DNA of 64,000 bases from Karstenula rhodostoma CBS 690.94. Taxonomy: Eukaryota > Ascomycota > Dothideomycetes > Pleosporales > Didymosphaeriaceae. Below, in pieces: positions 11,083 through 50,480 of the stretch. How positions within the stretch are numbered: the stretch's first letter is position 1; each line of letters opens with the position of its first letter. The position numbers were made by a program, and so were the translations under genes. The stretch spans positions 708,228-772,227 of the forward strand of contig MU001492.1 in the NCBI GenBank assembly GCA_010093485.1, written 5' to 3'. The notes beneath the pieces are model-generated. The model was not told where the DNA came from, searched no databases, and worked only from the letters and a program-made list of their open reading frames with translations.

Positions 11083-12740
11083 ATGGCTGTAGAAACTTAC
11101 AAGATGTGGGTAGGAGGACAGGAAGCCGAAGGTCAAGCGGAGCAGTCAGTCAGCCTACCCCTCCATGGAAGCATCTTCCAACCATCTAACTACATCTAGA
11201 CTATCCGTTGAGGATCCCTCGACTGGCGACATCTTTGCAACGTGCCACGCTGCTTCTCCCGAAGATGTCGACTCAGCAGTCCGAAATGCACATGCCGTCT
11301 TCAGGTCAGGCGTCTGGTCAAAAGCACCCCGCCATATCCGCGCAGACACCCTGGAGCGTGCTGCAGATCTTCTGACCAAGAACATATCGCGGTTGATTGA
11401 GCTGGAAGTTCGACAGAGTGGACGCGCCATCCGAGAAATGAATGCCCAGGTCCCGACGTTGACCAAATGGTTCAAGTACTATGCCAGCTTGATCCGCGTC
11501 GAAGAGCGAAGCGTAATGCCTACCATGGGGAAACTCCATAACTGGATTGATCGTGTGCCGCTGGGCGTCGTTGCCCAAATAACCCCGTTCAACCACCCGA
11601 TGCTCATCGCGGTGAAGAAGATTGCCCCTGCGCTTGCGGCAGGGAACTGTGTGATCCTAAAGCCCAGCGAACTTACCCCTCTTACGAGTATCGAGTTGGG
11701 CAAGTTGCTGAAAGAGGCGGGGCTTCCTGATGGCGTCTTCAACGTTCTTCCTGGAGACGGCGCAACTACTGGAAAAGCACTTATCTCGCATACCCTCATC
11801 AAGAAAGTGGACGTAACAGGCGGCACCCCCGCAGGCCGTGCGATTGGCGCCATAGCAGGCGGTAATCTCGCGCACTTCACTGCGGAGCTCGGCGGCAAAG
11901 CACCCCTGGTCGTCTTTGAAGAAGCCAACATCGACGCCGCCGTGAACGGGATTGTTTTCGGAAGCTTCATCGCGAGCGGCCAGACCTGTGTCGCAGCCAC
12001 TCGCATCATCGTCCACAAGAACATTACCAACAAAGTCCTCGGGAAGCTTCGCAAGAAGGCCGAGAGCATCGAGCGTCGCATGGGCAGCCCTTCCAATACG
12101 GAATCCATGATGGGCCCGCTCATCTCAGCCAAGCAACTCGAAAATGTGCGCTCGCTTGTGGACGATGCGCTCGAGTCTGGTGTATGGGTGTACGCGGGTG
12201 GCAAGCGCATGACCGATACTTCTCCCCTGGACGGCACCGACTTCTCCAAAGGGTACTTCTACCCGCCGACCATCCTTGCCGATAGCCCTGATCACAAGAT
12301 CGTGGACACGCGAATCTGGAAAGAGGAAGCCTTTGGTCCGGTCATAGTGGTGGTAGAGTTCGACACAGAAGAAGAAGCGCTCAAGCTTGCGAATGACAGT
12401 GAGTTTGGCTTGGGCGCAGCGATATGGACACAGGATCTGGCTCAGGCGTATCGCGTCTCAGAAGCAATTGAAGCGGGTATCTGTTGGGTGAACACGCATC
12501 ATCGGAACGATCCGAGCAGCCCGTGGGGCGGGATCAAGAGCTCAGGTGTGGGGAGTGAAAACGGTGTTGGTAAGTTACGACCATCGACTACGACCGAGCA
12601 AGACGCTAACATTGAGACCAGACGCCTACCATGCATACACAACAACCAAGAGTACCATCATCAACTACGCCACCGCAGAAGAGAGCATCGCAAACGACGA
12701 CTGGTTCCGCGAGGGCACGGGTGAGGTTAGATACGGGTAA
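11083..12740 (+). CDS. NAD(P)+-dependent aldehyde dehydrogenase (ALDH superfamily)
   Basis: Oxidises an aldehyde to a carboxylic acid. Exons 11083-11144, 11200-12569 and 12622-12740 give 516 aa, a normal ALDH length. Catalytic residues are visible: Asn152 in ITPFNHP, Glu250 in AELGGKAP and Cys284 in SGQTC. The cofactor region KPSELTPLTS and the KEEAFGPV and NTHHRNDPSSPWGG(I)K blocks are in the expected order. Splicing restores the frame at both ends: CA|A (Gln) at intron 1 and G|AC (Asp) at intron 2, where the continuous frame would otherwise run into unrelated residues. The N-terminus (MWVGGQ) has no targeting signal, so a cytosolic enzyme is likely. Substrate cannot be told; the betaine/aromatic-aldehyde branch is possible. 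It converges with the coiled-coil gene. Confidence 0.92.
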
Positions 12741-17573: not shown

Positions 17574-20500
17574 TTAATGCGCCGAGGTATCGCCTATTCT
17601 GCTCATGCCACCAGCCACTGCACTGGCTTGTAGTCTGAAAGCTCTTAAGCTGTTGGTGGTACTCCTTGAGCGCATATGTGCATTGCCCATCGACGACGCC
17701 TCACGCGCCGACTCTTCTCGGATAGGCAGCCGTTGCATAGAGCGAGCACGGTCTTTGAAATTGAATTGTGTCGACTCTATAGCGCTGTGAGGCGGTGAGG
17801 CAAGTCCAACTTGACCTGGTTTCGGGCGGGTGTTCATCTTGTTCATCAGAGCCGACATTGTGGCCGCTGGCGACATGTGTGTAGGAGTCATAGCACTGTC
17901 TTCAGAAGTAGCAGTATTACGGCGCTGGAGCGCTGCGCCGGAATGGTTGTCTGCAACCGTATTCCGCCTTGCCAGACTCAGACTCCCGCGCCCGCCATTA
18001 ATTGATGGCGAACGGCTAGTGGAGCGACTTGATGGTGGCGTGGGAAGGCCGTTGGGAACTGGAGACATAGAACCATAAGCCTGCATTAGTTGTTCGAGAT
18101 TAATGGCCTGAGGGAGTTTGCTAAGCCGTCGGATTGCGCGTTTGTTGTCACTGATGAACGCTGAAATTGCCTTTAATGCATTGGTCTGGTTGTGTTGTTC
18201 ATACGCAGGAGCACCGTCGCTTGTATTCATGGCCCTTACTGCATGTTGTTCGTTCAAGTCGAGGTTGCGATGTGATCGCAAATCAGCATGTTCCAGATTC
18301 AGTTCGATTTGGGAAACGATTTGATCGAAATCCACAAATTCTCCAACGGCAGGCTGGTAGGTTGATGCAGTGCTGATGTTGACGCTGCGAGACAAGACAA
18401 AGAAAGAGCCGTCGCGTATTCTTCTCTTGAGGATGTTCCAACGAGCACGAGCGGGGTTCCTCTCCAGTCCAGGCTGAAATACTGAGTGTCGGGCAAGCTT
18501 GGTGTAGAACCCTTCAAGCCGTTTAGCCATGCGCTCTAGCACCTGCATCAGGAATGCAGAGAGTGCTGCAATGCGTTGGCTGTCCGAAGCAGCGTCGAGC
18601 TCCATGATGTTCCCAAAAGAATCCATACCAGTACAGGCTTCATCGCGAATAGCTTCCAGAAACTCCATGTCGTACTGCACAGAGCGTTGCGCGTAGGCGA
18701 TAATACCCTTTTCGTGATGCCGAGCAGATTCGCTGTTACAAGTAAACTGCCCAATCTGCGAGATCTCATTTGATGCTTTGACTGCATCGCTAGATCCCTT
18801 GGCACGAGCAATGATGCCTAGGACGTCGGGAAGCTTGGAAGGGGTTGCAGACGAAGCGGCGTTTGCGAACGCGAAGGAGATTTTGAGATACATCTCCTGT
18901 ACTTTAGGTCCGAACAAAGCAGAAAAGGCACCCTGGAGTAGTCGAGACTGATAATGGTAGAATCGGCGAACACCGCCCATATTGAAAAGCTCCCCTTGGA
19001 ACCAGACGATGGACGACTCCATAATCATCCCGACTTCGAAGTGAGAGGCTACCACCTGCTCAGTGGCGACCCGAAGGAAGCTGTTCCAAAGGTCGTACAG
19101 CATGCCGATTTCTTCGGAGTGATATGCCGGTTTGGGAGTCAATTCTCCGATGTAGTACTTTGTGAGAAGTGAAGATACTTCTGGATTGTTCGTATGCGCA
19201 AGAAGATCGAAAGACTTTGAGCAATCGACACCGCCGTTGGATTTGATGATGTTCGTACCTGTGCGGATTAGCTTGGGTGCGTCAGAGCCTAGGGTTGAAC
19301 TTACCTCCTGGATGCATCGGACAGAAGTCGGTCACATCATAGACTTTGCCGTGAACGCCTATCCAAACGCGAGAGTCGGGTGTGTGTCCAGTGTGAAGTG
19401 CCAGCTGGGAGAGCGGTATGGTTGGCTGGTTACACGGTAAAGGCTTCGGAGTCATGAAAACGTCAAGCATGAACCGGCGTTCGGCGAAGGCAGTAGTGAG
19501 AATGGATTCCACGGTCTCCATGGTTGGCGAGCGGTGATTGTAGAGGGCTTTGCGGATGCCGGACATGACAGAGTCAAAGACGCCTACTGAGCCACAGACA
19601 TAGATATATCCGCCGATGCCTCCCTGTTTTTTGCTCATAACCTATGAGAACACTACGTTTAGCGTATTGTGGGATATTGCATTTGTAGAAGTTACACTTA
19701 CCAAGTCGCAGATAGCATGCCCTTGCTCTATAATGAGACCGTCAATATAGCGTGGAGGAATATCTTTCTCCACGAGATCTTGAGTTACAGGATTGTAGAC
19801 CAGACCCCGGGAGTCACGGGAGAATGCAGTGTGAACCTCCATCAAGCCTTCGTTGACGTAATGGCGAAGCTCAGACTCGTAGCAAAACTTCTCTCGCGAT
19901 TGCACACCAAGATAGAGTGCAGTTTTACCCCAGGATCGTCCGCAACGTGCTTGCCAGAAACTGCGAAATGGTGCAATACCACTGCCGCCCGCAAACAATG
20001 CTACTGGTGAGGTATCGTCGAATGGAAGCTGGAACGCAAACGGTCGGGAGACTCCCAGCAACAATTCCTCGTCATCAAGAACATCTAACTCATCTCCTAC
20101 AGGCGGATTCAGGAAGCCGCTGCTGACTCCATGCCGCACAATCTTGGAATTGCCTGCGAAGGTCGAGCATAGTTCGTAGTTTGATCGTGAGATGGTGAGG
20201 TCGACGGTCCCTTCATCGGTCAGAAACATTTACCAAACAATAGAAGAACTTACCTGGCAACAACTCGTCGGAGTGTGTAGAGATGCTATAGGTCCTTGGA
20301 ACCTCGACGGGAATCAAGTCGGCTAACCATGAAAGATCACCAGATAGTCCAAATGCTTGGTCCCAGATCTTTGTTGGGGTGTCTTGGACTGCGGCTTGCA
20401 GCAAGTCTCCTAAGGAGGCACGCACCGGCCATTCATCTGTTGCGAGGACCTGGAGGACGGTATTCGAAGATGCTCGAAGCATTGCGTGTAGCTTCGTCGC

Positions 20501-22747
20501 AAGTCCCTGCGTGATCGGCGCCAGATGACCCTTACGCAACACATCAATGACTGTGAGCCGGGGCTTTCCAGACCGAGTCACACTCGCGATATGGTCAGCA
20601 TAGCGCGACCAGACGCGATCGAGTGCAACGGTATCTTCGAGCATGGAATCGAGACCAAGAGCCGCGGCGACCTTGGCGCACTCTGTCCATGAGTTCATTG
20701 GCATGACCGCAAGCCTATCACCAGGCTGGAATGTGATACCGGCCTCTTGAATATCGAGAGTGACCATAGCAATTGATCGAGATGGGTCTGAATCGACGAA
20801 ATTCCGGCTTAGGATGCGTCCGCGGTAACGGCACTCTTCGAATGTGCCGCGCATCTCATGTGGTTCAAGATCACGCTGGCCCCGGAATGGCTCAAGGCGC
20901 TCTTTCATAGACGCGGAGAATTCGTGATGTGTTTGCTCCCATGGTCGCATGTCATTCGAAGCTCCCGAAGCACCGTTTGTCTCAGTACGACCTGTCTTGC
21001 CAGCGCATTCGAGGAGCTACAACCCAATTAGCATACAGACGGTTTATCCTAGAGATTTCCCAAACCTACCCCAAAGACTTTGTAACGATGAACGCCCATG
21101 AAGCCTCGCTCGCCAGTATAGGCTTCGACAACCCCATCGAAGACACCCATGAGCCGAGGGTCTCCAGATGTTTTAACGTATTCTGGGATGCTGTAGTGAT
21201 ATTCGATGGCAGCAATAAATGCGCGGAGGTTGGAAGGTAGCCATGCTCGTAGATGAACGCCCTCGGCCCCAAGGAACGAATCGTACTTTTTCCTTCCGAG
21301 GAATGCATCCATGACAAGATATCTGATTATTGTTAGGCGCGAGTTAGCATTTTAGAGATGCCAGAGACGTACGGAGGAAACTGTAAGCCAGAGGTAGCGG
21401 GGCACCTCTTTGACAAAGGTGCAGAAAATTTGGCCCATCGCACCCATTCGGCCGGTGAGACGTAGTTCTCTCCCGATCCAGCTAACGAGATTGTATGGAA
21501 TGCTTGCGGCATGCGTTCGAGAATCTCTTTGAGACGGACGAGCTCCCGTAGAAGGCCTTCATTGTTCCTGTTCATTACATGCTCCTGGCACGCCGCAATG
21601 GCGTCAGGTCCATGCTGGAAGCTTGCGGAAGTCTCAGCGCACCCCTTCAAGAAGGCTCGCTCCGCACTGTCACCGAACATGGCCCAACGTAGTCTCTATA
21701 AGGGATTAGCTGGATTTTCCAAGCATTGAGGGGCGCATACAGTATTGTCAAATCGACCAACGTAGGGATAGTCCGACAATGGATCAATGTAATCGACATT
21801 GTAAGATGACTGATCGAAGAAGGTGAGGTGAGGGATCGATCGGCCCATACGTCTGCAAATTTGAACGTAGGGCAGCCCGATGCTGCATGGAATCCCTTTA
21901 ACCTCATCGCCAAGATCGTCGCTCATCGGCACGCCGTCTAATTTGAGAGATTTCGTGGCAACATTGATTCCCTCGTTACCATCATGCCTCTCCTCGTACC
22001 GATATATTGAGCAGAGCATCCCTAGAGCAACAAGTGCTGCCCATAGTGCCTTGTCGGGGATGATGTCGGCACGCCCCTCAACAATTGGCAGTGCAGCCAC
22101 TGACTCTCGCACGCGACCGCGAGCAATGCAGCCCGGCATGCGCTCGCAAAGGTCCATCCACACCCTTCCGGGTGAGTTTCGTAATGCGCCTGGTGCTTCA
22201 CTTGTGTCAGGAGGCTGGAATCCGTACTCGACACTCAGGTAGCCGTCCCTCCAACCTGTGCTGGAGCCAACCTCTTCAGCTCGTAGGATGACCTGGCGGG
22301 CAGGTGCTCCAAGAGCAACAGCAAGCAGATCTCGCTCATCAACGTTAAGCTTGTCAAGGCTCTTCACCCCCTTGGCGTTTTGGATGGCCTTGATCTCGTC
22401 CATTGAAGGTACATCGGAGTAGAGCAGCTCATTGATGGCTTTGCGTTCCCTGGCTTAGTTAATACTACTCCGAGACTTAGATCTCCTAAACGTACCTTCG
22501 ACGAAGGAAGTCTTCCACGTTCGAATCTTGTGGGATCTAGTGTCTGTGAGCATGCATCGGAACTGACCCAAGACGATATACTTACCCCAAAGGCAGCATG
22601 CAAGTCGCCTGGCTGTGCAAACCCAGAGAGGGTGCATCCGCGAGGACCGATCCTACTACTCCTGCTGTTACTCCCGGGAGCGGATCTTGAACATGCACCA
22701 CCCGCTCGGCCAGACACCGGGCACCCCGACATAGCGATCGAGGACAT
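17574..22747 (-). CDS. IDO-like haem domain / FAD-NADPH reductase / cytochrome b5 fusion
   Basis: One nine-exon gene, 1,593 aa. Exons: 22586-22747, 22496-22536, 21741-22449, 21373-21695, 21070-21322, 20254-21016, 19702-20210, 19305-19641 and 17574-19258. All introns are 43-60 nt GT-AG and keep phase. Residues about 65-510 resemble indoleamine 2,3-dioxygenase: DYPYVGRFDN, SGLQFPPYLVMDAFLG, LRAWLPSNLRAFIAAI and FMGVHRYKV, with His490 as the likely haem ligand. Residues about 520-960 are a CPR-type FAD/NADPH module: RTYS (737-740), GVSSGF (778-783), AGGSGIAPFR (824-833), YVCGS (934-938); no flavodoxin-like FMN domain is visible. Residues about 1000-1062 are cytochrome b5, with HPGG (His1030) and His1054 24 residues later. 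The last 520 residues are helical, then Ser/Arg-rich, and unrecognised. No signal peptide or membrane segment. Likely a self-sufficient NADPH-driven haem enzyme; substrate unknown. Confidence 0.88.
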
Positions 22748-36740: not shown

Positions 36741-39700
36741 CTATATTACGTCTTGCTCCGCATCGGTGAAAACCGGTTCACTGCAATCGCACCCATACCG
36801 CCTCTTGAATTCATACTCAGGGAGGCCATCCAGGCCCTCGAGCGCAATGTCGGCCACCTTCTTCTTTGCGTACCGACCACTGACCGCGACGCCGTGGAAA
36901 TGAACTTTATCATGGATCATGACCATTGCGACAACCCGGTCTTTCTCGTGAGGAAGCATCTTCTCCGTTGTATGCGTGGCGATCCGATGGTCCCTGCATC
37001 CTAACTCGTCCTCAAGTCGCTTTTTAAGGCGAGTAAGTGGATGTTTGTTCGCGAACTCGTCATAGATGGACATGTCAAGGAAGAAAGGCTTCAGATTTAT
37101 GTCGAAGAACTCTTGAACAACGCTGAAGTTGAACTCGGAGTCGACGAAAATGGCGCCAACGTAGGCTTCAACCACGTCGGCCAGGCACTTGGGGGCTTTA
37201 TCCACTGCGGTCCAGTAATTAACTGCGCCGTCGGACTCGCTCTCTGCTTCTTGGATTTGGGTAACATAGTCGCAGATCTCGCTTGTGAGTTTCTGAAGCA
37301 ATATGTTAGCACTTGCGTTGGTTGACAAAACAAAAACGTTCACTTACCGCGTTGTTCTGCCGAATATGCTTGTGAAAGCCGAGCTTCACGCATATCGCTC
37401 CCAGGAATTGATTCGAAACCATAGGCGTCTTGTGCTCCGTCATCCATTGAGGGTCTTTGTTAGGATAGTTGAAGAACTACAGTAGAATTAGCAAGGCCCA
37501 CATATGTTGGAGTGGATGTTCTGCCTTACCAGATGCATGATGAAAGCTTGATCAAGCAGCGAGTCACCGAGAAATTCTAAGCGCTGATAGTTGGGAATGT
37601 GCTCCCACATGAAAGCCTGGGATGAATGAATGAAGGCAGATCGCAGTAGACGAGGGTATTTGAAGTGGTAGGGATGCCTGATGGTGTGGTCAGCTTTTAC
37701 GATCATCATGAGTTGCCTTGTGACTCACAGTTTCTCAACCTTGGCGGCGAGGTCTAGTTGTGCGGCAGTCGCTTCGGCCAGTTGATACTTTGGCAATTGA
37801 TATGCCTTGTAGTAATCTGTCCACTTCTCCATAACGTGATCCTCATTCATTACCAGTTTGGTGACTGCTTTAACAGCTTCATCCCACATCTGAAAATCCC
37901 ACTGGCCCCGTTGGTTATGCTGCATGAAAGCGGCACCAATCAGAGCTTCGCAGACATCGGCAACGGACTTATCACCAAGTGCGTGCGTGATGGTCTGATT
38001 GTGATGGTCGGCTCTTGTGCCGGCTTGGGCGCCCTTTCCCTTCAGTAGTTTGAGCGTCGGATACCATGTGCGCCTGTACATATTAGTCTTGCGCTCGCGT
38101 AGGCTTGCAGAGCCTTATGATCACTTACCGAGAAAATGCTGCTGTTCGAATGTACTCGACAAGATTTGTCCTCTTTACTGCTGTTTTGAAAAGGTTGCTG
38201 TTGCAGAGCATTTGCATGCGGCGCACGTGAAACTCAAATTCGTTCTCATCGGGCTGCTGTACGAACGTGGAGATTGACGTAGCCATCTTCAAGAAACAAT
38301 CACCGAGGAATTCCACTTCAGTCAATCATTAGTGGATTTCTCAGATAAGCAGACAAGATCTGTAGCTTACGCCTTTCATAGTTTGGACCCATCCCGCTCC
38401 TGAAGTTGATCTTCTCTTGGCCGTGCTCATCAGAGTTTTCAGAATCTTTCGTAGTGGCTTCCAAAGCAAGAGCAGGCCCGATATTGAGGTCGAACATCTG
38501 ACAAGCCTCTAGTGCGATAAGGTAATCTTCCACCCGGTGTATGATTGCTGGAAACACGTAGCACATAGCCACAAAAGGAATAGGTAGCTGGGGAAGAGTA
38601 AGCACCTGACAAAAAGTATTCACAAAACCCACTTACCGCCGATATGCGAAGGGGTTCAGGACATAGATAAGTGATATTGTTCCCTTTGATCTCTTTGACT
38701 TCTTCGTCATCTTTGGTGTCAACCACAGCTAGCCAATTGCGCCGATGCCCGATTTTCTCCACTTGCATAACAGGCTGATTCACGTCCCACACTCGGCGCG
38801 CACGATCCTTTTTCCAGAGACTGACAGAATAATCGAGAATGTTATCGTTCCACTTCCACGCTGGAGCGTTGTCAGGGACGGGGTCCAATGGCTTCATATC
38901 CGGCATCACGCGAATTGAGTAGAAGCGTCGACCACCCGCACCGCGATCAACAATGTATTTGTCCGGGAGCATCTCTAGGGGAAATTCTGGTGTCCATCGG
39001 TACTCAGGCTGGTCGCAGACGGAGCGCACTTGGACCATGTCAATGACATCTTCTGGATCTGCTGACGTCGAGACCGGAGCCTTTGAAGGGCGGAGCGGAA
39101 CTTGCCAGTAATACATTTTGGCAGAATCAGTCTCGAAATCCTTGTGGAAAATGTCTTCGTAAATGTGATGGAAGTACTCCGTGAGTAGCCCAAGAACCTT
39201 GGCTGTGACCTTGAGAGGCTTGCTGAGAGGGACCGTTACAACGTTGGATACCCGGTCGTCTTTCAAGTAAATTGGGAATGCAGGAAACTGGGGAAGTGGC
39301 ATGCGCGTAAGAAGTCCAAGGCCTTGGTGCGGCCGATCAAGACCGGCATCCACATCCATAACCGTCAGGTAGAGGAGCTCAGGCGCACTCCCCAGACCAG
39401 TTTGCCAAAGTTCTGGTTTGACTCGCATTGGGTATTGGTTCTTCTTTTTCTCGCTAACAGCAGAGCGTTCGTTGGCATGGTCGGGTGCCGTCTTTCTCAT
39501 TGTGGAGAGTAGATTTTCGTCTAGGTATCCCTTGTTCCGAAACTCGAGACACATCTCGAAAGCTGCAGAACACTTTGCGAGGGCTTTCTTTCGGTGAACT
39601 CGCCCTGTCTTGAAGGTAATAGGCGAAGTTTCTGGGAGAATTACTTCGCATTGAAAGCCACTCTCACACATGCCGTTCGAATCGGTGTTGACTGCTCGGG

Positions 39701-41792
39701 ATGTAACGTAAGTGGGTTGAATGTCAACTTGCTCATTTCCCCTCTTGAGACATGCCACGAAGTACCCAAGGATTGACAAGCTCGAGCTGTATGTGAGTCT
39801 CGCTCCAGTGGTGGGATCTTGATAAGAAGGAAGATTGGTCTCCGCCAGAAGAAGCTGGGTGAGGCGTACATCCGGCTCATCAAGCAATCTATCTCCACTC
39901 AGGCCCTGACAAAACGATTTCATACGTTGTTCTGCACTCATTGCTTCAAAGATAAGTGCCTCCTGATGAGGGTTGTCTTTTTCAATCATATGTAGATATC
40001 GCGAGTTTTGGTGTCTCGCCCGGCCTCGCGATTGCACATACCCGATCATTGTCCTGTAAAGGTCAAAGCGAGCCACGAGATTGCACTGAGGTATGTCAAG
40101 TCCTTCTTCTGCGACAGATGTAGAGAATATGCAGTTCAAATCGCCTTTCCTGAAATCGGACACTGTTCTGACCTGCTTGCTCAATGAAACATTGAAATCT
40201 CCAATGCTTCCACTGACACCAACCAGGATACCGCCATGGATATGGGGTCCGCCAATGTGCATAAAGATTCGATGCAGAAGTCGAGCAGTCTGACGCTGCT
40301 CCACGAACACGATGCACCTATTGTTCCCATGGCGATGGTAGTACTGGTCGAGATACCAGTGGAGCAGAAGTACTTTCGAGCTCAAATCTTCTGGCGTGAT
40401 TGTAGGGATACCATTGTCAAAGTTCTTCACGTACTTGGCTGCCTCGCGAAGTTGTGCAATTTGTGTATTCAGCTTGTCGACAGAGTCGTTGGTGAGCGTT
40501 TTGTTGAACTTATACTCTTCTCGAATCTCGCGTTTGCGACTCTCAGCTTCCGTAAAAGCAAAGGTCCAGTACTCGTCAGAAGCCCATCTTCCAAGCTCCG
40601 ACGCAAAGCGCTTTGACTGATTGAAGAGCTTATTGAAGACGGACAAGTGTCCAAAACGAGCTTTCAATTCCTGGTGAAACTTTGTCTCGTAGCCACCTGA
40701 TAGTCGTGCATATCTAGCAATCTCCTCCTCTGGTCGATTGATAGCGTTCGCAGCCAGGGTGATGTCGGATGTGGTTGCAATCTTGCAGTCAAGCATGGCC
40801 TCAAGCTGGACGGCTGCATCTTTGATGTCTGTGTTGGCATCAACAGGGGAAGCAGTCATACCAAACACTCGAGGTCGCTGTGAGCGATCTGATACGGGAA
40901 AGTAATAGTCCTTCATCAGCCGGGCATAAGGATGCCCGCTCTTGGCATGATGAGCTTCGTCAAAGATGAGCATGTTGATGTTGGTCATGTTGATGAAAGA
41001 GTGCATCATGCAGTCTACAAGCACTTGAGCTGTACATACGACCACCATGTTCTTGTCGAAATGTTTCTGCCATGTATTTTTGTTCCATAGACTAGGTCCC
41101 ATAGAGCCGCTTATGCCTTCGACCGCATGACCACCGAGACCGCAGTCCAAAACGTTCGACTGTTGAAACACCAGGTTAACTGAGTTAACCAAGAAGAACG
41201 ATATTTTCGGCGGCTGTCCCTTTTTGCGCGCATCAAGTTCAAGATCAAGAACATGGCGAAGGAGCAGTGTAGCAATGTGTGTTTTTCCAGAGCCGGTGCC
41301 TAAAACCGCGATGATGTTGTCGTCCTTTGCGCGTTGGAACAGCTCGGTCTGATAGTCTCGGGGACTGGTAATGCTGAAACTGGTCTCCTGTTTCTTCAAC
41401 AGCTGTTTGATCGAGAGCTTATCATCCTCGATATCTTGAAGCGCCTCTTTGACTTCCTTCTCGGTGATTTGAGCTTCCTTCTTGACTGCAAAAGATCGAA
41501 AGATGGCGTTCTGAGCGGCACGCTTCTCCTTCGAGGTCGCAGCCCCATGAGAAGGGGGTCCGTCTTTGTCAATGTCGCTATCAACGTCCTCGTCCGCATC
41601 TTCTGGGTTTCTGTTTTTCGTATCATTTTCGTCTGCGCTGTCATCTTCGGGCTGCAATTCTAGGGCCGACAGCTCAGGAAGTGGATCCTGCAACGTCTTG
41701 TGGACGTCCTCGGACGCGCCGACGCAGGAATCATCAAGAGAACCGTACTCCTCGTCTTGGATCGGGTCATAGTGGCCCCAAGCTGGAGCCAT
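36741..41792 (-). CDS. DCL1: Dicer-like ribonuclease III, Dcl-1 type
   Basis: Makes small interfering RNAs from double-stranded RNA. Seven exons: 38637-41792, 38371-38587, 38129-38315, 37729-38073, 37530-37677, 37348-37476 and 36741-37292; 1,577 aa. Domains in order: DExH helicase (GTGSGKT at 165-171, DEAH at 278-281), helicase C-terminal ([23 protein letters not shown]), Dicer dimerisation domain, a degenerate PAZ region, RNase IIIa ([14 protein letters not shown] near 1121), RNase IIIb ([13 protein letters not shown] near 1333) and a short C-terminal dsRNA-binding-like tail. Both RNase III domains keep the acidic residues ([22 protein letters not shown]). [11 protein letters not shown] and [17 protein letters not shown] are characteristic of ascomycete Dcl-1. 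The open frame extends upstream, but the first ATG is at 41792. Divergent from TAP42. No Argonaute or RdRP gene is present in the window. Confidence 0.95.
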
Positions 41793-42316
41793 TGAGGAGT
41801 GCGTTCGTGCGCCGCAAGACGAACTGGGCCACCCCCCGAGAGGGTACAACTATGAATGGTTGGTTCGAGATGAGAGAAGGTTTGAAGAGATGTAAGCGTA
41901 TGACGATTGGGTTGCAGAGATGGAGTCAGGAAAGCTCAAGAAAAGCGAGCTTGCCTTCCGTTTGTATTGTGGTGACTAAGGAGCAAACGGAACGCGCAGA
42001 ACAGCAGGCACGCTCCGCCTCCCACAGAGCAAACCGAAAGCACGCGCCCTGCACGGTCGTTCACCTACAGTTATACGATCGGCCGCTCAGGGTATTCGAG
42101 TCACGATACAGTTTAATGAGCGATGTAGGGCATCGAGCCGTATAGTTGACCGTCTCGTGGACGTGGAGACGAGCGGGGCAGAGAACGCGCGGGGGAGGAA
42201 AGAGTGTCCGAGCGCTGCTTACTTACCGACGCCAACTCACGTGCAGCCTCCAATCTTCCACTACGAAGGTCCCTATCACGCTCCAACGCGTCGAAACATT
42301 CCAAATACTCCCAAAC
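41793..42316. promoter_or_regulatory. divergent promoter, Dicer-1 / TAP42
   Basis: 524 bp between the two divergent start codons. No clear TATA box. Contains short open frames but no supported gene. A change here could affect both genes. Confidence 0.5.
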
Positions 42317-44609: not shown

Positions 44610-47260
44610 TTTGGAGCGATGGCCTCTGGGGCTGGTGGTGGTAGGTTTCAACGGCGCAGTAACGCTAGGCAACAATGCGGAAGGTTTGAATCAGGCGCCT
44701 GGGCGGCAAAGACGACCAGAGCAGATGAGTCGATTGAATCTACCAGGAGTTCAACACGAAGGGCAAAGATGACTCTGCGACGCGAAGGTGGAGTTTTCGT
44801 GTAGGCTCCTAGGCTGCTGTTCCATGGAGTGGTATCCGTTGACGCTTCTGCTGCACCTGATTGGCTCGCTTCAAGGTTAACCCAGAGGCAGCCTTTCCGC
44901 CTTGTGCACTATATGCCATGATACGCCACCAGTGCCATGAATAAACACCGATCTGGTCAAGAATGCGTTCGCAAAAGCTGCAAACGAGAGTGCATCAACA
45001 CCGCTTGTCAAAGCGCGACTATCCTAGACAGTAGCGCCGTCCAGCCATCGCATCCGAACGTGCTATGCCTCATTTAACAATTTCTCCGAGTGTCGCGCGT
45101 GTGTTCGTGGCCACGAATGCTTTGAGATTTCGACAAGTTCAAATTGACCGGCATAGGTAGGAAGAGTTTTGGACTAAGAGACCTGTCTCGGAGCGTTAGG
45201 GAGGCTCCAATTGAATTTGATGGTCTAGTGCAAACTGTTAGAGGCGTAGAAACTGTGCATGGGGAAACGGGAGTGTGGGGCTCCAGAACTTGGAGACAAA
45301 GCACTGAATCGAGGGTGGATGACGATGCTACTCGATTATATCGTCTTCTAGGAGTTACGCTTCAAGATTGGCTTATATGCCGGTGAGAAGGTAGCCATGG
45401 ATCGACAAGCCAGCTGGAGACACTTCGGTACTACTCGACGGTTAAATTAGGTCGAGGTCACAATCTTATCCACGGTAGAAGGTAGCATGGCCTTCACGAT
45501 GTGGACTGGCGCCGCCAATGGGACAAGAACCCGCAGGCGATGCTTCCTTGTTGGCCAATGATGTTGGTAGAGGATGATACTATAGATGTTGTACAACTCG
45601 AGTTAGTTGCATTCGGATCGAAGAAGATAAGGGCTAGGCAGATGCATGCTGCTTTGCGTATTGATTACATATGGCCTTGGGTGAGGTCCCAATATGGAGT
45701 CCGAAGTACGCCGCGTTGCCGAGCCTGCCTCAAGAATCAGTGTGCCTCTGGTGGCGCCTTGAAACGTTGAACATGTACAAAGGTGTGTCAGGGGTAGGAT
45801 GCTAGCGGGGTTGCGAGTATCACGAAAGCTTGTCTTGGGTGGTCTGTTCGGGTGATTGTTCGAACAAAGCGGCGCACAACGGTATTGCAGGAAGGCTTTC
45901 AAGCGGCTGATGTATTGAAATAACCTGCAGACGTTCACCACCAGTCGGATGGTACCGCACCACCGGTAGGATACGAGAGCGAGTAACGGTTGCGGGGGTT
46001 GCATCTTCGCTTGTATGTACTACCATCCAGACTCTTCTCAAACCCCGTCCGCTTATGCACGCAGGTCAGCCTCGCCGCTGCGTCGGTAACGGTACACGGG
46101 GTAGTTTGAATCGAGCGAGTCTTGCGATTCGTACGCGTGCGTGCCGCTGCCCGCACCGCATGTTCGTATCAGATGCAACGCAAGCTCCCTATCTACGCGA
46201 TGAAGCCTAGATTATCATGAGGTCTAGGCCACAGGGCATGGTGGGTGGGCACTGGAGATTATGTGATGATGATCAAGAGGCGGGCAGGCCGGATCTGGGG
46301 TGTTGTCCGAACAGGCCATTTCGATGTGAGCATGCAGGGCGCAGGGGCAATAACACAGCAGATAAACTTTGAGCTTCAAACGTAATTCAGCAGTATAAAG
46401 CCAAGGCGTAGGAAGAAAAGAAATGGTCCGACGGATTGGTGGAGTAGGAGGCGGGTGTCGGTATCCCACGTCGGAGGCGAGCGGTTCCTGGCTGTTCCTG
46501 AATGCTTCCACATATCAACCGGCACCGGGGGCGCTTGGCAGCCGGCACACATGGTGATAGCAGAAGGCAAAGGCAATCCACATCGCATGGCCAAGACGTG
46601 CTGACGTCCAAGGCTGACGTCCAAGAGATGCAGTGGATACGGATCCGAACAGATGAAGTGAGATGGGCATGCAGGGAGGCACTGCGACGTCCGCGTACAA
46701 CGACAGCAGAAGGTGAAGGTTCCCACCCAACGCAAGGTCCGAGGGCAACGACGCCGGGAATGGCCACGGTCGGCGGCGGAGAAAGCCTGGACAGAAGCAA
46801 GCGGAGGGCACAGGCGGGCGTTGCGATAAGGACAGCGGAGAGCCCCAAGTTTACTCGAAACTATGTCCAAGGCGCCGGCCGCACCCCTGCTAGCTCCATC
46901 GCCCGAAGAAGCAAAGCGGGACCGTTCCGGAGGACCGCAGAGGCGCATGTCGAGGTTATGTGTGATGCTGCACGTCGACGGCGTCTGATGGTTGAGCGTG
47001 CCAGGATGTGTGCAATGTCGCCGACGGACTGTCTGTCGCGACATTCACTGCGCACTTGTGCTCGCCCACTGCTTGTGCTACCCCACGCGTGCCCGCTGTC
47101 AACCACGACTAGCTCTGTCAATCGCCCTCTACACCACCCTCGAAGCTTTTTGTAGCGCACACGACACCTCACATCCACACGTCGACAAGCTGGACACCGG
47201 ACACGCCGTCGATGCGAGAATACCGCCTGTTCTAAGCAGCACAAGGAGCACCCTCTCCGC
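44610..47260. other. 2.65-kb intergenic region, no gene recognised
   Basis: Long gene-poor stretch between the esterase and TSC1 genes. A pair of overlapping antisense open frames (46376-47044 minus, 46502-47155 plus) mirror each other and look compositional. A perfect 12-base core repeated in tandem lies at 46601. Nothing else supported. Confidence 0.5.
46601..46626 (+). repeat. tandem 13-bp repeat with TGACGTC core
   Basis: CTGACGTCCAAGG followed directly by CTGACGTCCAAGA. The TGACGTC core resembles a CRE/bZIP-type half-palindrome. It lies about 660-730 bp upstream of the TSC1 start. Confidence 0.65.
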
Positions 47261-47331
47261 ATGGCTGGGTCAGGGTAGGCAGTGCCCGACTCGACCGCCT
47301 CCAAGCGCTTTGCTCACCAGCAGCCAGGTCG

Positions 47332-50300
47332 ATGCGCGAGACGCTCAAGGCGCTCACCACCACCTTCGCTGCCCCGCCGGCTCCGTACCCGCTGCCCGAA
47401 GAGCTCCGCGACACCATCGACCGCTTCCTCGAGAAATATGACGCCATCGACGATGCCGATTCGCAGCGCTTCCACGACGACCTGCTGTCCCTGTACCACA
47501 AACATGTCGCCGGAAATCCGGGCAATCTGGGACCCTTCCTTGGCGTCTTGCGAGCTGTCAGACCTGCGCTCACGGGAGAGGCACGGCTGGGCGAGTGGTG
47601 GGACCTGGTGCTCAAGCCCACGATTGACAGCGTCGGCCACAAGCGACGCGAGGTGGAAGACGCAAAGGAGCTACTGCTAAGCTTCCTGATATACGAGGCA
47701 GACGATGACAACGACAAGGAGTGCGCGCGGCTATCAGACCTGTTCCTGCGAAAGACGTTGGACGTGTACCTTGCGCGGACCAAGGTGCCTTCAGAGACCG
47801 AGCACATTGCTTCTCCCGAAGACGATTACATCTCCAATGAGGTCGAGTCGGTATTGGTTGCATTCGGACGGAAACAACCGAAAGAGCTCCTTCTCGCCGT
47901 GGACGACCTCTTCGTCCAGAAACGATACCGGGTCCAAGCCCTCATCCTGCTCAATGCCTTTGTCCGACTTCAAACGCCTCACCTCCACGTGGTTCTCGAG
48001 ACGCAGCTCATACAACATCTTGAGAAGTGTTTGCTCATCGACACCTCCTCCAGTGTCGTTGGCCAGGCCCTGGTCGTGCTCATCATGTTTTTACCACACA
48101 TCACATCTGCACTCACCTCTGACCATCATCTTTCACGGTTGTTCCTCATCTACAGCAGGCTAATATGCTGGGACAAGTTCGGCAACCCAGGTGATATAAC
48201 ATCGACCGATTCCGCTCTGGACGACGATGTTTCGGACAGCTCGGACGACGAAGAGCCCGACCCATCATGGGAACAGCTGCAACACGCTCCCGACCATGGG
48301 GAATCAACCCCACCCACTGCGCTTCTGCACTACTTCACCTTCCTCTACGGTCTTTTCCCACTGAACTTCATGAGCTTTATACGGAAACCCAGGAAATTAC
48401 TGAAGTCGATGAACTTTCCTGGAGCTGACGACTTTGACCTGGACCCTGATCTGCTCCACAGCAGGACAGAGCCATACCGACGCGTGCATCTCATGCATCC
48501 CAACATGTTTTCGACCACGACCGAGGATGAGTTGACGGAGAACAGGTGGCTCGACAGCGATCCCGCAGACGTGGTCATCGAATGCATGGAACTGTGTGTA
48601 GCTGTCTCTACCACGCTCGACGACCCTGGACCACCTCCAACGTCTAAGCTGCCCGATATTCCTGCCCCACCTATTCCTGAGTCCGGCTTTGCCCTCGATG
48701 ATGACGCAATTGCGAATGAAGCGACAGTCAGTTGGAGGAATACGCAGTCAACAACGGTGGCGTCTTCGGCGACGAGTCAACCGGATCTTACGGAAACTCC
48801 TGAGCTTCCACAGAATGCCAAATCTGGCACACCAGCCTCTCCGCTGTTGCAGTGCAAAGACGTGATTGAGTCACCAACACTCCCGCCAGCGAAGGAAACA
48901 CCAAAGAAACAAAGTTTCCTCTCTGCACCCTCCGCCGATCCACAACGTCTGACCTTGCGTACACCCAACGCCGACAACTTTGCGCAGATCATCAGTGTCC
49001 CAGGTTCCCCTACGCAACCAGACTTTCAGAATCTAAGCATGGCTGTGTTGCAGAGGGAGATCATGCTACTCCGGAACGACCTGAACTTCGAGCGGTATCT
49101 CAAGGCTCAGCATAGCGCTCATATTGGGCAGATGCAACGGAAGCACATCAAGGAAGCTACTGCCGAAGCCGACACCCAGAACCTCATCAATACCAACAAG
49201 ACTCTGAAGGCCAAGCTTGCTAAGATGAACGAGCAGTATGCCCAACTGAAGAAGGAGACTCTCACCCGGCGTAATCAGACGCAGAACTGGGAACGCGAAC
49301 TCACCGGAAAAGTCAAGTCGTACCGAGAAGAGAACAAATCACGGCAGGGCGATGAAGAAACCCTTCGTTTTGAGCTCAAGAAGGCCCGAACAGATTTCGA
49401 GCATCTGAAGAAGATTGTCGAGAACGCAGAGGCCCAGGAATTGCGTGCTAAACAACGTACGGAGGCTCTCGAGTTCGAGCTACAAGACTATGGCAATATG
49501 CGACAGGAGCTTGATGCTGCCCAAGACAAGATTTCGGAATATGAGACCCAGAACAAGGAGTTACACTCGCTCATCCAGCAACGTAACGAGCTGCGCAACG
49601 ACCTCGAGCTTACCCACATGCGTTTGAACAGCCGGGAATTGGAACGGGAGCGAGCCGTCAAAGCATATGAACGGCGAATTATGGAACTTGAATCGCGACT
49701 GCTGTCTGCAGAGAAAGGCGCCATCAAGCCGGGTCAACTTCCCCCATCTATGCAACAAATGGTGGACTCGGTAATCGCTCAAAACAACTCCAAGATGGCC
49801 AACATGAAGAAGATGTATCAACGTCTGCAAGAGCAGAAGATGGAGCTCGAAATGGAATATCACGAGCTTCGGGGCGAGCATCAGGCTCTTATTGGGCGTC
49901 TGCACAATGCCGAAATGGTGGAGCCCAACGACCCGGAGAGAGACGCACTAAGTCGTAACTTTAGCACTCGTTCAAGTGGAATGTACGACTCCAGACCCCT
50001 CCCCCCTTTGACAACCGACATCTCCCCTGGCTATGATGGCTATAGCCAACACCTCTCACCTACGTCTCCTGTCAGCCCTACTTCGGGTCCACCTCCGCGA
50101 CAGCCACGCTTGGACTCTCTAGCACGGCCACAGCACAGCTACGGACCCGACTTCTCTGGACCCTATGAGCAATCCCTCAATGCCCTTTTCGAGAACCAGA
50201 ACGCCCAGGCGCTTGGTCAATCGAGCGGCAAGAGCGAGCATTCTGTGGAGACGAGCAGCAGCAAGGGTGACAAGAGAGACAAAGCAGCCGCGAAGGCGGA

Positions 50301-50480
50301 TCCGCGACCTTTCTACGGCGGTCGTGGTAAGCATTGATTATGATCTGGTCGCAAGTTCACAAGCTAACTTTACTAGGTGGTGCACAAAACTACTCGGGCA
50401 AGAAGAAGGAAACGAAGGATCCCAAGAAGACGGCTGAGAAAAAGACGGGAGGTTTTCGAGGGCTGAGGAACATTGTGTAG
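47332..50480 (+). CDS. TSC1: tuberous sclerosis 1 (hamartin) homologue
   Basis: Scaffold of the TSC1-TSC2 complex, which keeps the GTPase Rheb inactive and so restrains TORC1. Exons 47332-50326 and 50377-50480 give 1,032 aa. The N-terminal 350 residues are the helical hamartin core (FLEKYDAIDDADSQRFHDDL, LVLKPTIDSVGHKRREVEDAK, YFTFLYGLFPLNFMSFIRKP). Residues about 570-860 form a long coiled coil (QREIMLLRNDLNFERYLK, typical of TSC1). The end is Pro/Ser-rich, and the last exon gives a Lys-rich tail ending RGLRNIV. A 14-nt upstream exon (47261-47274, MAGS plus GG) can splice to 47328 in frame and would add MAGSGS; otherwise that ATG makes a five-codon upstream ORF. Confidence 0.93.

Follow-up and report, generated by a model that had tools for sequence, protein, structure and literature searches.

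A 64,000-nucleotide stretch of the genome of the ascomycete Karstenula rhodostoma CBS 690.94 (contig MU001492.1, positions 708,228 to 772,227), referred to here as the window, carries on its minus strand (22747..17574) a gene for a single 1,593-aa protein in which a haem domain of the indoleamine dioxygenase (IDO) type, an FAD/NADPH reductase and a cytochrome b5 are fused. This protein quite probably belongs to an old family of self-sufficient haem enzymes, in which an IDO haem fed by NADPH, FAD and b5 would oxygenate a substrate that is probably not tryptophan. The case is strongest in its single-frame bacterial members, its match to the IDO fold and the fact that every fused domain examined has lost the tryptophan anchors; function, substrate and tail are its weakest points.

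The gene comprises nine exons (22747-22586, 22536-22496, 22449-21741, 21695-21373, 21322-21070, 21016-20254, 20210-19702, 19641-19305 and 19258-17574, all on the minus strand) separated by eight GT-AG introns of 43-60 nt, and re-splicing yields one uninterrupted frame. Within eight preset junction regions, enumeration of the splice sites left 44 combinations free of stops, and the one ranked highest by a simple home-made donor/acceptor score is the nine-exon model that a sequence-only reading of the window had put forward. The model is further upheld by the public annotation, as its product is letter-for-letter identical to P0001 (K. rhodostoma CBS 690.94, P171DRAFT_5856). A search for the four families that the same reading had named (PF01231, FAD_binding_1, NAD_binding_1 and Cyt-b5) recovered all of them above their curated cut-offs and in the proposed order, namely IDO at residues 140-373 (E 1e-10), FAD_binding_1 at 566-763 (1.5e-11), NAD_binding_1 at 823-886 (6e-7) and Cyt-b5 at 1006-1072 (4.6e-15); no fifth family appeared at E<=1 in the Pfam scan of the whole protein. 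Two details of the proposal had to be adjusted. The haem domain, correctly recognized as IDO-like and placed at 65-510, is better delimited at about aa 106-545 (20870..22337, introns included). The reductase (about aa 553-985, 19447..20848, introns included), described as being of the type of cytochrome P450 reductase (CPR), corresponds to the FAD/NADPH half of that enzyme and not to all of it, as the scan detected no flavodoxin family, i.e. no FMN-binding domain, at E<=1. The b5 domain (aa 1006-1072) lies at 19140..19386 with one intron inside.

The window protein scores 41.4 bits with PF01231 against a cut-off of 26, and its relative from Aquimarina reaches 134 bits; a fold search with a model of the Aquimarina haem domain returned the same fold as IDO1 and IDO2. 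Two alignments (A1 and A2) each used 10 of 14 diverse sequences, and an IDO-domain alignment of 40 rows comprised 21 fused domains, 17 stand-alone IDOs (one human, three fungal, 13 bacterial) and two domains of a cyclic-nucleotide type. The proximal histidine of IDO1 (H346) is matched in the same column in all 40 rows, and the column holds His in 90 of 90 rows of a family alignment. Its equivalent here is H490 (codon 21088..21090, minus strand, in GERGFMGVHRYKVFG), the predicted proximal haem ligand, which corresponds to H348 of the Aquimarina protein. M487, which falls at the H346 position when no gap is introduced, was also considered as axial ligand and rejected because some members have L, I or F there while H490 is invariant.

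In human IDO1, R231 and T379 are described as having a part in L-Trp binding (a passage of PMC5758539), and in the sequence alignment both are kept in all 17 stand-alone IDOs. Their equivalents are missing from each of the 21 fused domains, where R231 is replaced by Ala (19) or Gly (2) and T379 is never Thr. The F226 position is Trp throughout the fused domains, the equivalents of F163 and S263 are retained, and a KxGRxxTxG region is strongly conserved; the position of the distal S167 varies (C, Q, I, P, F or M). This pattern predicts that the fused domains do not hold L-Trp in the manner of IDO1, and since the anchoring pair is absent from every fused domain examined, free L-tryptophan is probably not the substrate of the family. 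With this loss, a tryptophan-cleaving IDO equipped with a built-in reductant is not the likeliest function.

A tree of the 40 IDO domains places all 21 fused domains on one side of a branch with a support of 100/100, the fungal and metagenomic rows grouping within them (100/100), and the 17 stand-alone IDOs on a separate branch (99/96). A single origin of the fused IDO type would be the simplest reading, and the family appears to be old. The cyclic-nucleotide type joins the fused group via long branches, which triggered a program warning, and this joint is uncertain. This type represents another fusion from Myxococcota (L119:3103-6045 and L120:4803-7682) that links an IDO to a cyclic-nucleotide-binding domain; a Pfam scan of both proteins gave no reductase or b5 match, and they carry Gln for R231 and keep T379.

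Sequence matches of the reductase module in the Protein Data Bank (PDB) are to CPR, nitric oxide synthase (NOS) and sulfite reductase, and a Foldseek search with the reductase of the Aquimarina relative returned the BM3 FAD domain, P450 BM3, sulfite reductase flavoprotein and CPR in its top rows. In the Aquimarina model, the reductase strands start at 404, where the IDO domain has just ended, and b5 comes next, at about 806. It is b5 that seems to occupy the place of a one-electron carrier. The cofactor sites are strictly conserved in the 90-row alignment: the FAD-site R and Y and the Cys of a YxCG motif are kept in 88 of the 88 rows with a letter, and the columns of the axial b5 ligands H1030 and H1054 hold His in 83/83 and 84/84 such rows, respectively. 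A plausible electron route would run from NADPH via FAD and b5 to the IDO haem, with all three cofactor sites occupied. The hydride of NADPH would be transferred to the FAD of the CPR-type reductase half, from which b5, in the absence of an FMN domain, would take up single electrons and hand them to the haem held by H490. The reduced haem could then bind O2 and oxygenate a small organic substrate. Passages of PMC4191572 and PMC13142367 report that b5, and NADPH-CPR with or without b5, support IDO1. In a reductase-less Aquimarina variant, b5 is still joined to the IDO domain.

The family extends far beyond K. rhodostoma. A whole-protein search retrieved 298 relatives, and all four Pfam domains are present in 117 of the best 120 (the query's own entry counted, some rows being metagenomic); the four domains thus occur together in other fungi as well, a survey of which had been proposed. 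P0026, P0064 and P0068 each lack one of the four domains. The genera of the listed relatives are, as we take it, members of the Dothideomycetes, Leotiomycetes and Sordariomycetes, with one Phaeomoniella. A search with a piece from Serendipita gave 90 relatives, including proteins or pieces from Serendipita, Marasmius, Rhizoctonia, Dendrothele, Ceratobasidium and Mycena. Three proteins from metagenomes, 1,305-1,336 aa long, share 31% identity with the Serendipita query over 99% of its length and hold the four domains above cut-off, and the window protein is 30% identical to P0309 over 1,248 columns. A 700-aa protein of Didymella keratinophila (P0131) has IDO and b5 without a reductase domain, which may reflect either a faulty gene model or a further variant that lacks the reductase. 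Among the best 120 of 122 matches (E<=1e-3) in a search for stand-alone relatives of the fused IDO type, which reaches only sequences sharing exact words, none was named bacterial, and the ten matches inspected all belonged to the fusion, as fragments, variants or complete members. In viral contigs, 20 stretches fitted the search pattern and none was a relative.

Bacterial members were found by two routes. A scan of the GTDB 220 species genomes with two short peptide patterns, which missed the members from Myxococcota and Actinomycetota described below and is not exhaustive, gave 58 loci. Three of these, all from Aquimarina, match over the range from IDO to b5, and the other 55 are partial matches, mainly to the reductase. 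The Aquimarina proteins are single open frames of 1,070 aa, and in the one that was scanned IDO (E 8e-39), b5 and both the FAD and the NAD domain exceed their cut-offs. Matches occur in 9 of the 66 genomes of the genus, eight with a full-length gene and one (G326) without the reductase. A family-level sample yielded a match in 1 of 299 genomes, namely the starting genome, which was also the sole full-length case among 6 matching genomes of 395 at the phylum level. A survey for the IDO family gave matches in 7/349, 3/246, 10/187 and 1/296 genomes of the phyla of Neorhizobium, Kibdelosporangium, Myxococcaceae and Aquimarina, which we take to be Pseudomonadota, Actinomycetota, Myxococcota and Bacteroidota. 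Nine regions with unusual matches were fetched, and five of them hold a chain that the family profile covers from IDO up to and including b5 (E 1e-176 to 1e-223). These full chains, three from Myxococcota (L116, L117, L118) and two from Actinomycetota (L121, L122), have IDO, NAD_binding_1 and Cyt-b5 above cut-off, as is FAD_binding_1 in L117 and L118. With Ascomycota, Basidiomycota, metagenomic relatives and at least three bacterial phyla represented, the design is not peculiar to one fungus, as might have been assumed from the single gene.

The genomic and domain context of the bacterial genes offers some hints. All three full-length Myxococcota members found carry a gamma-glutamyl-cyclotransferase-like (GGACT/AIG2) domain in the same frame, before IDO-FAD-NAD-b5, which suggests a clue to the substrate. 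In Aquimarina, each of the eight full-length genes (L009-L011, L087-L091) adjoins a divergent HxlR-type regulator, a protein of about 200 aa ending in SYxLN and a DsbA-like CGWC protein. Pfam confirms HxlR in L009 and L088, while DsbA is above cut-off in L088 and below it in L009; at the remaining six loci the neighbours were assigned by visual inspection. The reductase-less gene of G326 (L086:4529-6562) encodes a 677-aa IDO-b5-tail protein and has genes for a TIR-domain protein and a BCCT transporter in its vicinity; none of the neighbours listed above occurs within the 9.9 kb read.

The alternatives to a self-sufficient oxygenase differ in how well they fit these data. An erroneous merger of separate IDO-like, reductase and b5 genes by the gene model can be given next to no credence. 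Some database models are indeed partial (e.g. P0026, P0127 and P0131). Yet the four domains recur in the relatives and the bacterial open frames of at least 1,070 aa are uninterrupted, hence the fusion is neither chance nor a mis-join of neighbours; with the exact match to the public annotation, a merger is already contradicted on sequence grounds. There is a small chance that the protein is a genuine tryptophan/indoleamine dioxygenase, whose fused reductase and b5 serve just to return the haem to its reduced state once it has autoxidized, a role that external b5 may play for IDO1. Such an enzyme would be expected to have the IDO1/IDO2 fold, the proximal His and the retained F163 and S263 equivalents, and the reports of b5 and CPR as IDO1 reductants would suit it, but it is difficult to reconcile with the loss of R231 and T379 in all fused domains. 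Moreover, the Karstenula genome contains three further IDO-family loci, whose open frames (the part covered) resemble ordinary IDO genes and which could supply kynurenine and NAD synthesis. The conservation of F163 and of the KxGRxxTxG region suggests a bound substrate, and the cyclotransferase-like fusion in Myxococcota suggests metabolism, which makes it improbable that the protein serves in electron transfer or in O2/NO handling (e.g. as NO dioxygenase, reductase or redox sensor) and oxygenates no organic substrate. A role of this kind would nevertheless accommodate the variable distal S167 position, the HxlR-type regulator and DsbA-like gene in Aquimarina, which would fit redox stress, and the precedent of IDO-like myoglobins with lost Trp activity (a passage of PMC4191572). 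A fungal NOS role was considered as well; no link could be drawn between the fusion gene and the Neurospora crassa candidates named in passages of PMC10889981 and PMC4948021. No NOS oxygenase family was found at E<=1 in the window protein, whose haem domain is of the IDO type.

Several observations weigh against the self-sufficient oxygenase preferred here. The good structure model is that of the Aquimarina relative, which is 26% identical to the window protein; a model of the fungal IDO domain alone, based on 10 close sequences, was of low quality (pLDDT 41) and was not used. The R231 and T379 columns stem from a low-identity sequence alignment, the structure comparison having been made without residue-by-residue alignment. 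Close to the lost R231 there is a Lys or Arg (most bacterial and metagenomic rows read WAK and ascomycetes VRW, whereas rows of the basidiomycete type are mixed), which could hold the carboxylate of an acidic substrate in another way. FAD_binding_1 falls below cut-off in L116 and L122 and has no match in L121. Profile comparison revealed no convincing likeness between fungal and bacterial tails (fungal versus Aquimarina, E 0.27; fungal versus metagenomic, E 0.003 at a probability of 10%; metagenomic versus Aquimarina, E 0.037). Finally, according to a passage of PMC4191572, human IDO1 showed lower activity with b5 than when assayed with methylene blue. A more specific version of the oxygenase reading can be offered tentatively: the IDO-fold domains may spend NADPH electrons in each turnover, delivered via FAD and b5, in monooxygenase-type chemistry on a non-tryptophan substrate. 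This could perhaps be an amine or a gamma-glutamyl conjugate, an idea derived from the cyclotransferase-like domain in Myxococcota.

The modules themselves have well-known counterparts. IDO1, IDO2 and the fungal IDO alpha, beta and gamma (PF01231) are stand-alone proteins, whereas here a reductase and b5 are fused, R231 and T379 are lost, and the fused domains branch apart from the 17 stand-alone IDOs. CYP102/P450 BM3, CYP505 and NOS likewise combine a haem oxygenase domain with a CPR-type FAD/NADPH module; the present proteins differ by an IDO-fold haem domain with a His ligand and by b5 in place of the FMN domain. With diflavin reductases (CPR, NOS, sulfite reductase flavoprotein) they share the FAD and NADPH domains (PF00667, PF00175), but an FMN domain was not found. 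Ncb5or, a fusion of b5 and b5 reductase, also unites b5 and an FAD/NAD(P)H reductase in one chain; in the present proteins the reductase is of the CPR type and an IDO haem domain is added. PrnB, presumably a stand-alone protein lacking reductase and b5, likewise belongs to the IDO/TDO superfamily and catalyzes an unusual reaction, a parallel drawn by description. It acts on 7-chloro-tryptophan, according to PMC11791213. No description or characterized enzyme with an IDO-reductase-b5 fusion was found in the open PMC literature searched, subscription papers lying outside the search, which agrees with the sequence-only reading, to which none was known.

The remaining parts of the protein are less conserved. 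The N-terminal segment (about aa 1-105, 22338..22747) contains one intron-pair and carries a GPRGC motif and CP dipeptides common to many relatives, P0200 and P0222 among them. Alignment of 118 relatives (two of the 120 listed were dropped by length) showed CP dipeptides in the first 60 residues of 85 (72 with two, 13 with one) and none in 33; CP motifs can be haem-regulatory. The C-terminal region (about aa 1073-1430, 18066..19139) is moderately conserved in fungi and is followed by a poorly conserved, Ser/Arg/Pro-rich low-complexity end (aa 1431-1593, 17577..18065). The tail, read earlier as helical and of unknown family, indeed has no Pfam match, and its counterpart in the Aquimarina model is made up of helices; the best hit of a PDB profile search with the tail has an E of 0.22. 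Ten long open frames of the window were scanned, and six have a Pfam match (aldehyde dehydrogenase at 11114-12721, Dicer-dimer/helicase at 38442-41849, hamartin at 47236-50334, M28 peptidase, DAO oxidoreductase and IF-2B); these neighbours form no evident pathway with the fusion.

As far as found, this is a widespread, uncharacterized protein family assembled from known modules. Its members appear in databases as sulfite reductase flavoprotein, NADPH-haemoprotein reductase or 'related to nitric-oxide synthase', names that may mislead. As the family occurs in many filamentous fungi under such names, its function constitutes a real gap in fungal and bacterial metabolism. A passage of PMC13142367 still calls the in vivo support of IDO1 by the known reduction systems unclear; a natural single-chain FAD-b5-IDO enzyme offers a fixed and testable electron path. 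Given that the Trp-binding pair is lost, the IDO fold is predicted to accept a new class of substrates here, and if electrons are indeed spent in a monooxygenase reaction at each turnover, the family would add one more natural design to the self-sufficient haem oxygenases of the P450 and NOS types.

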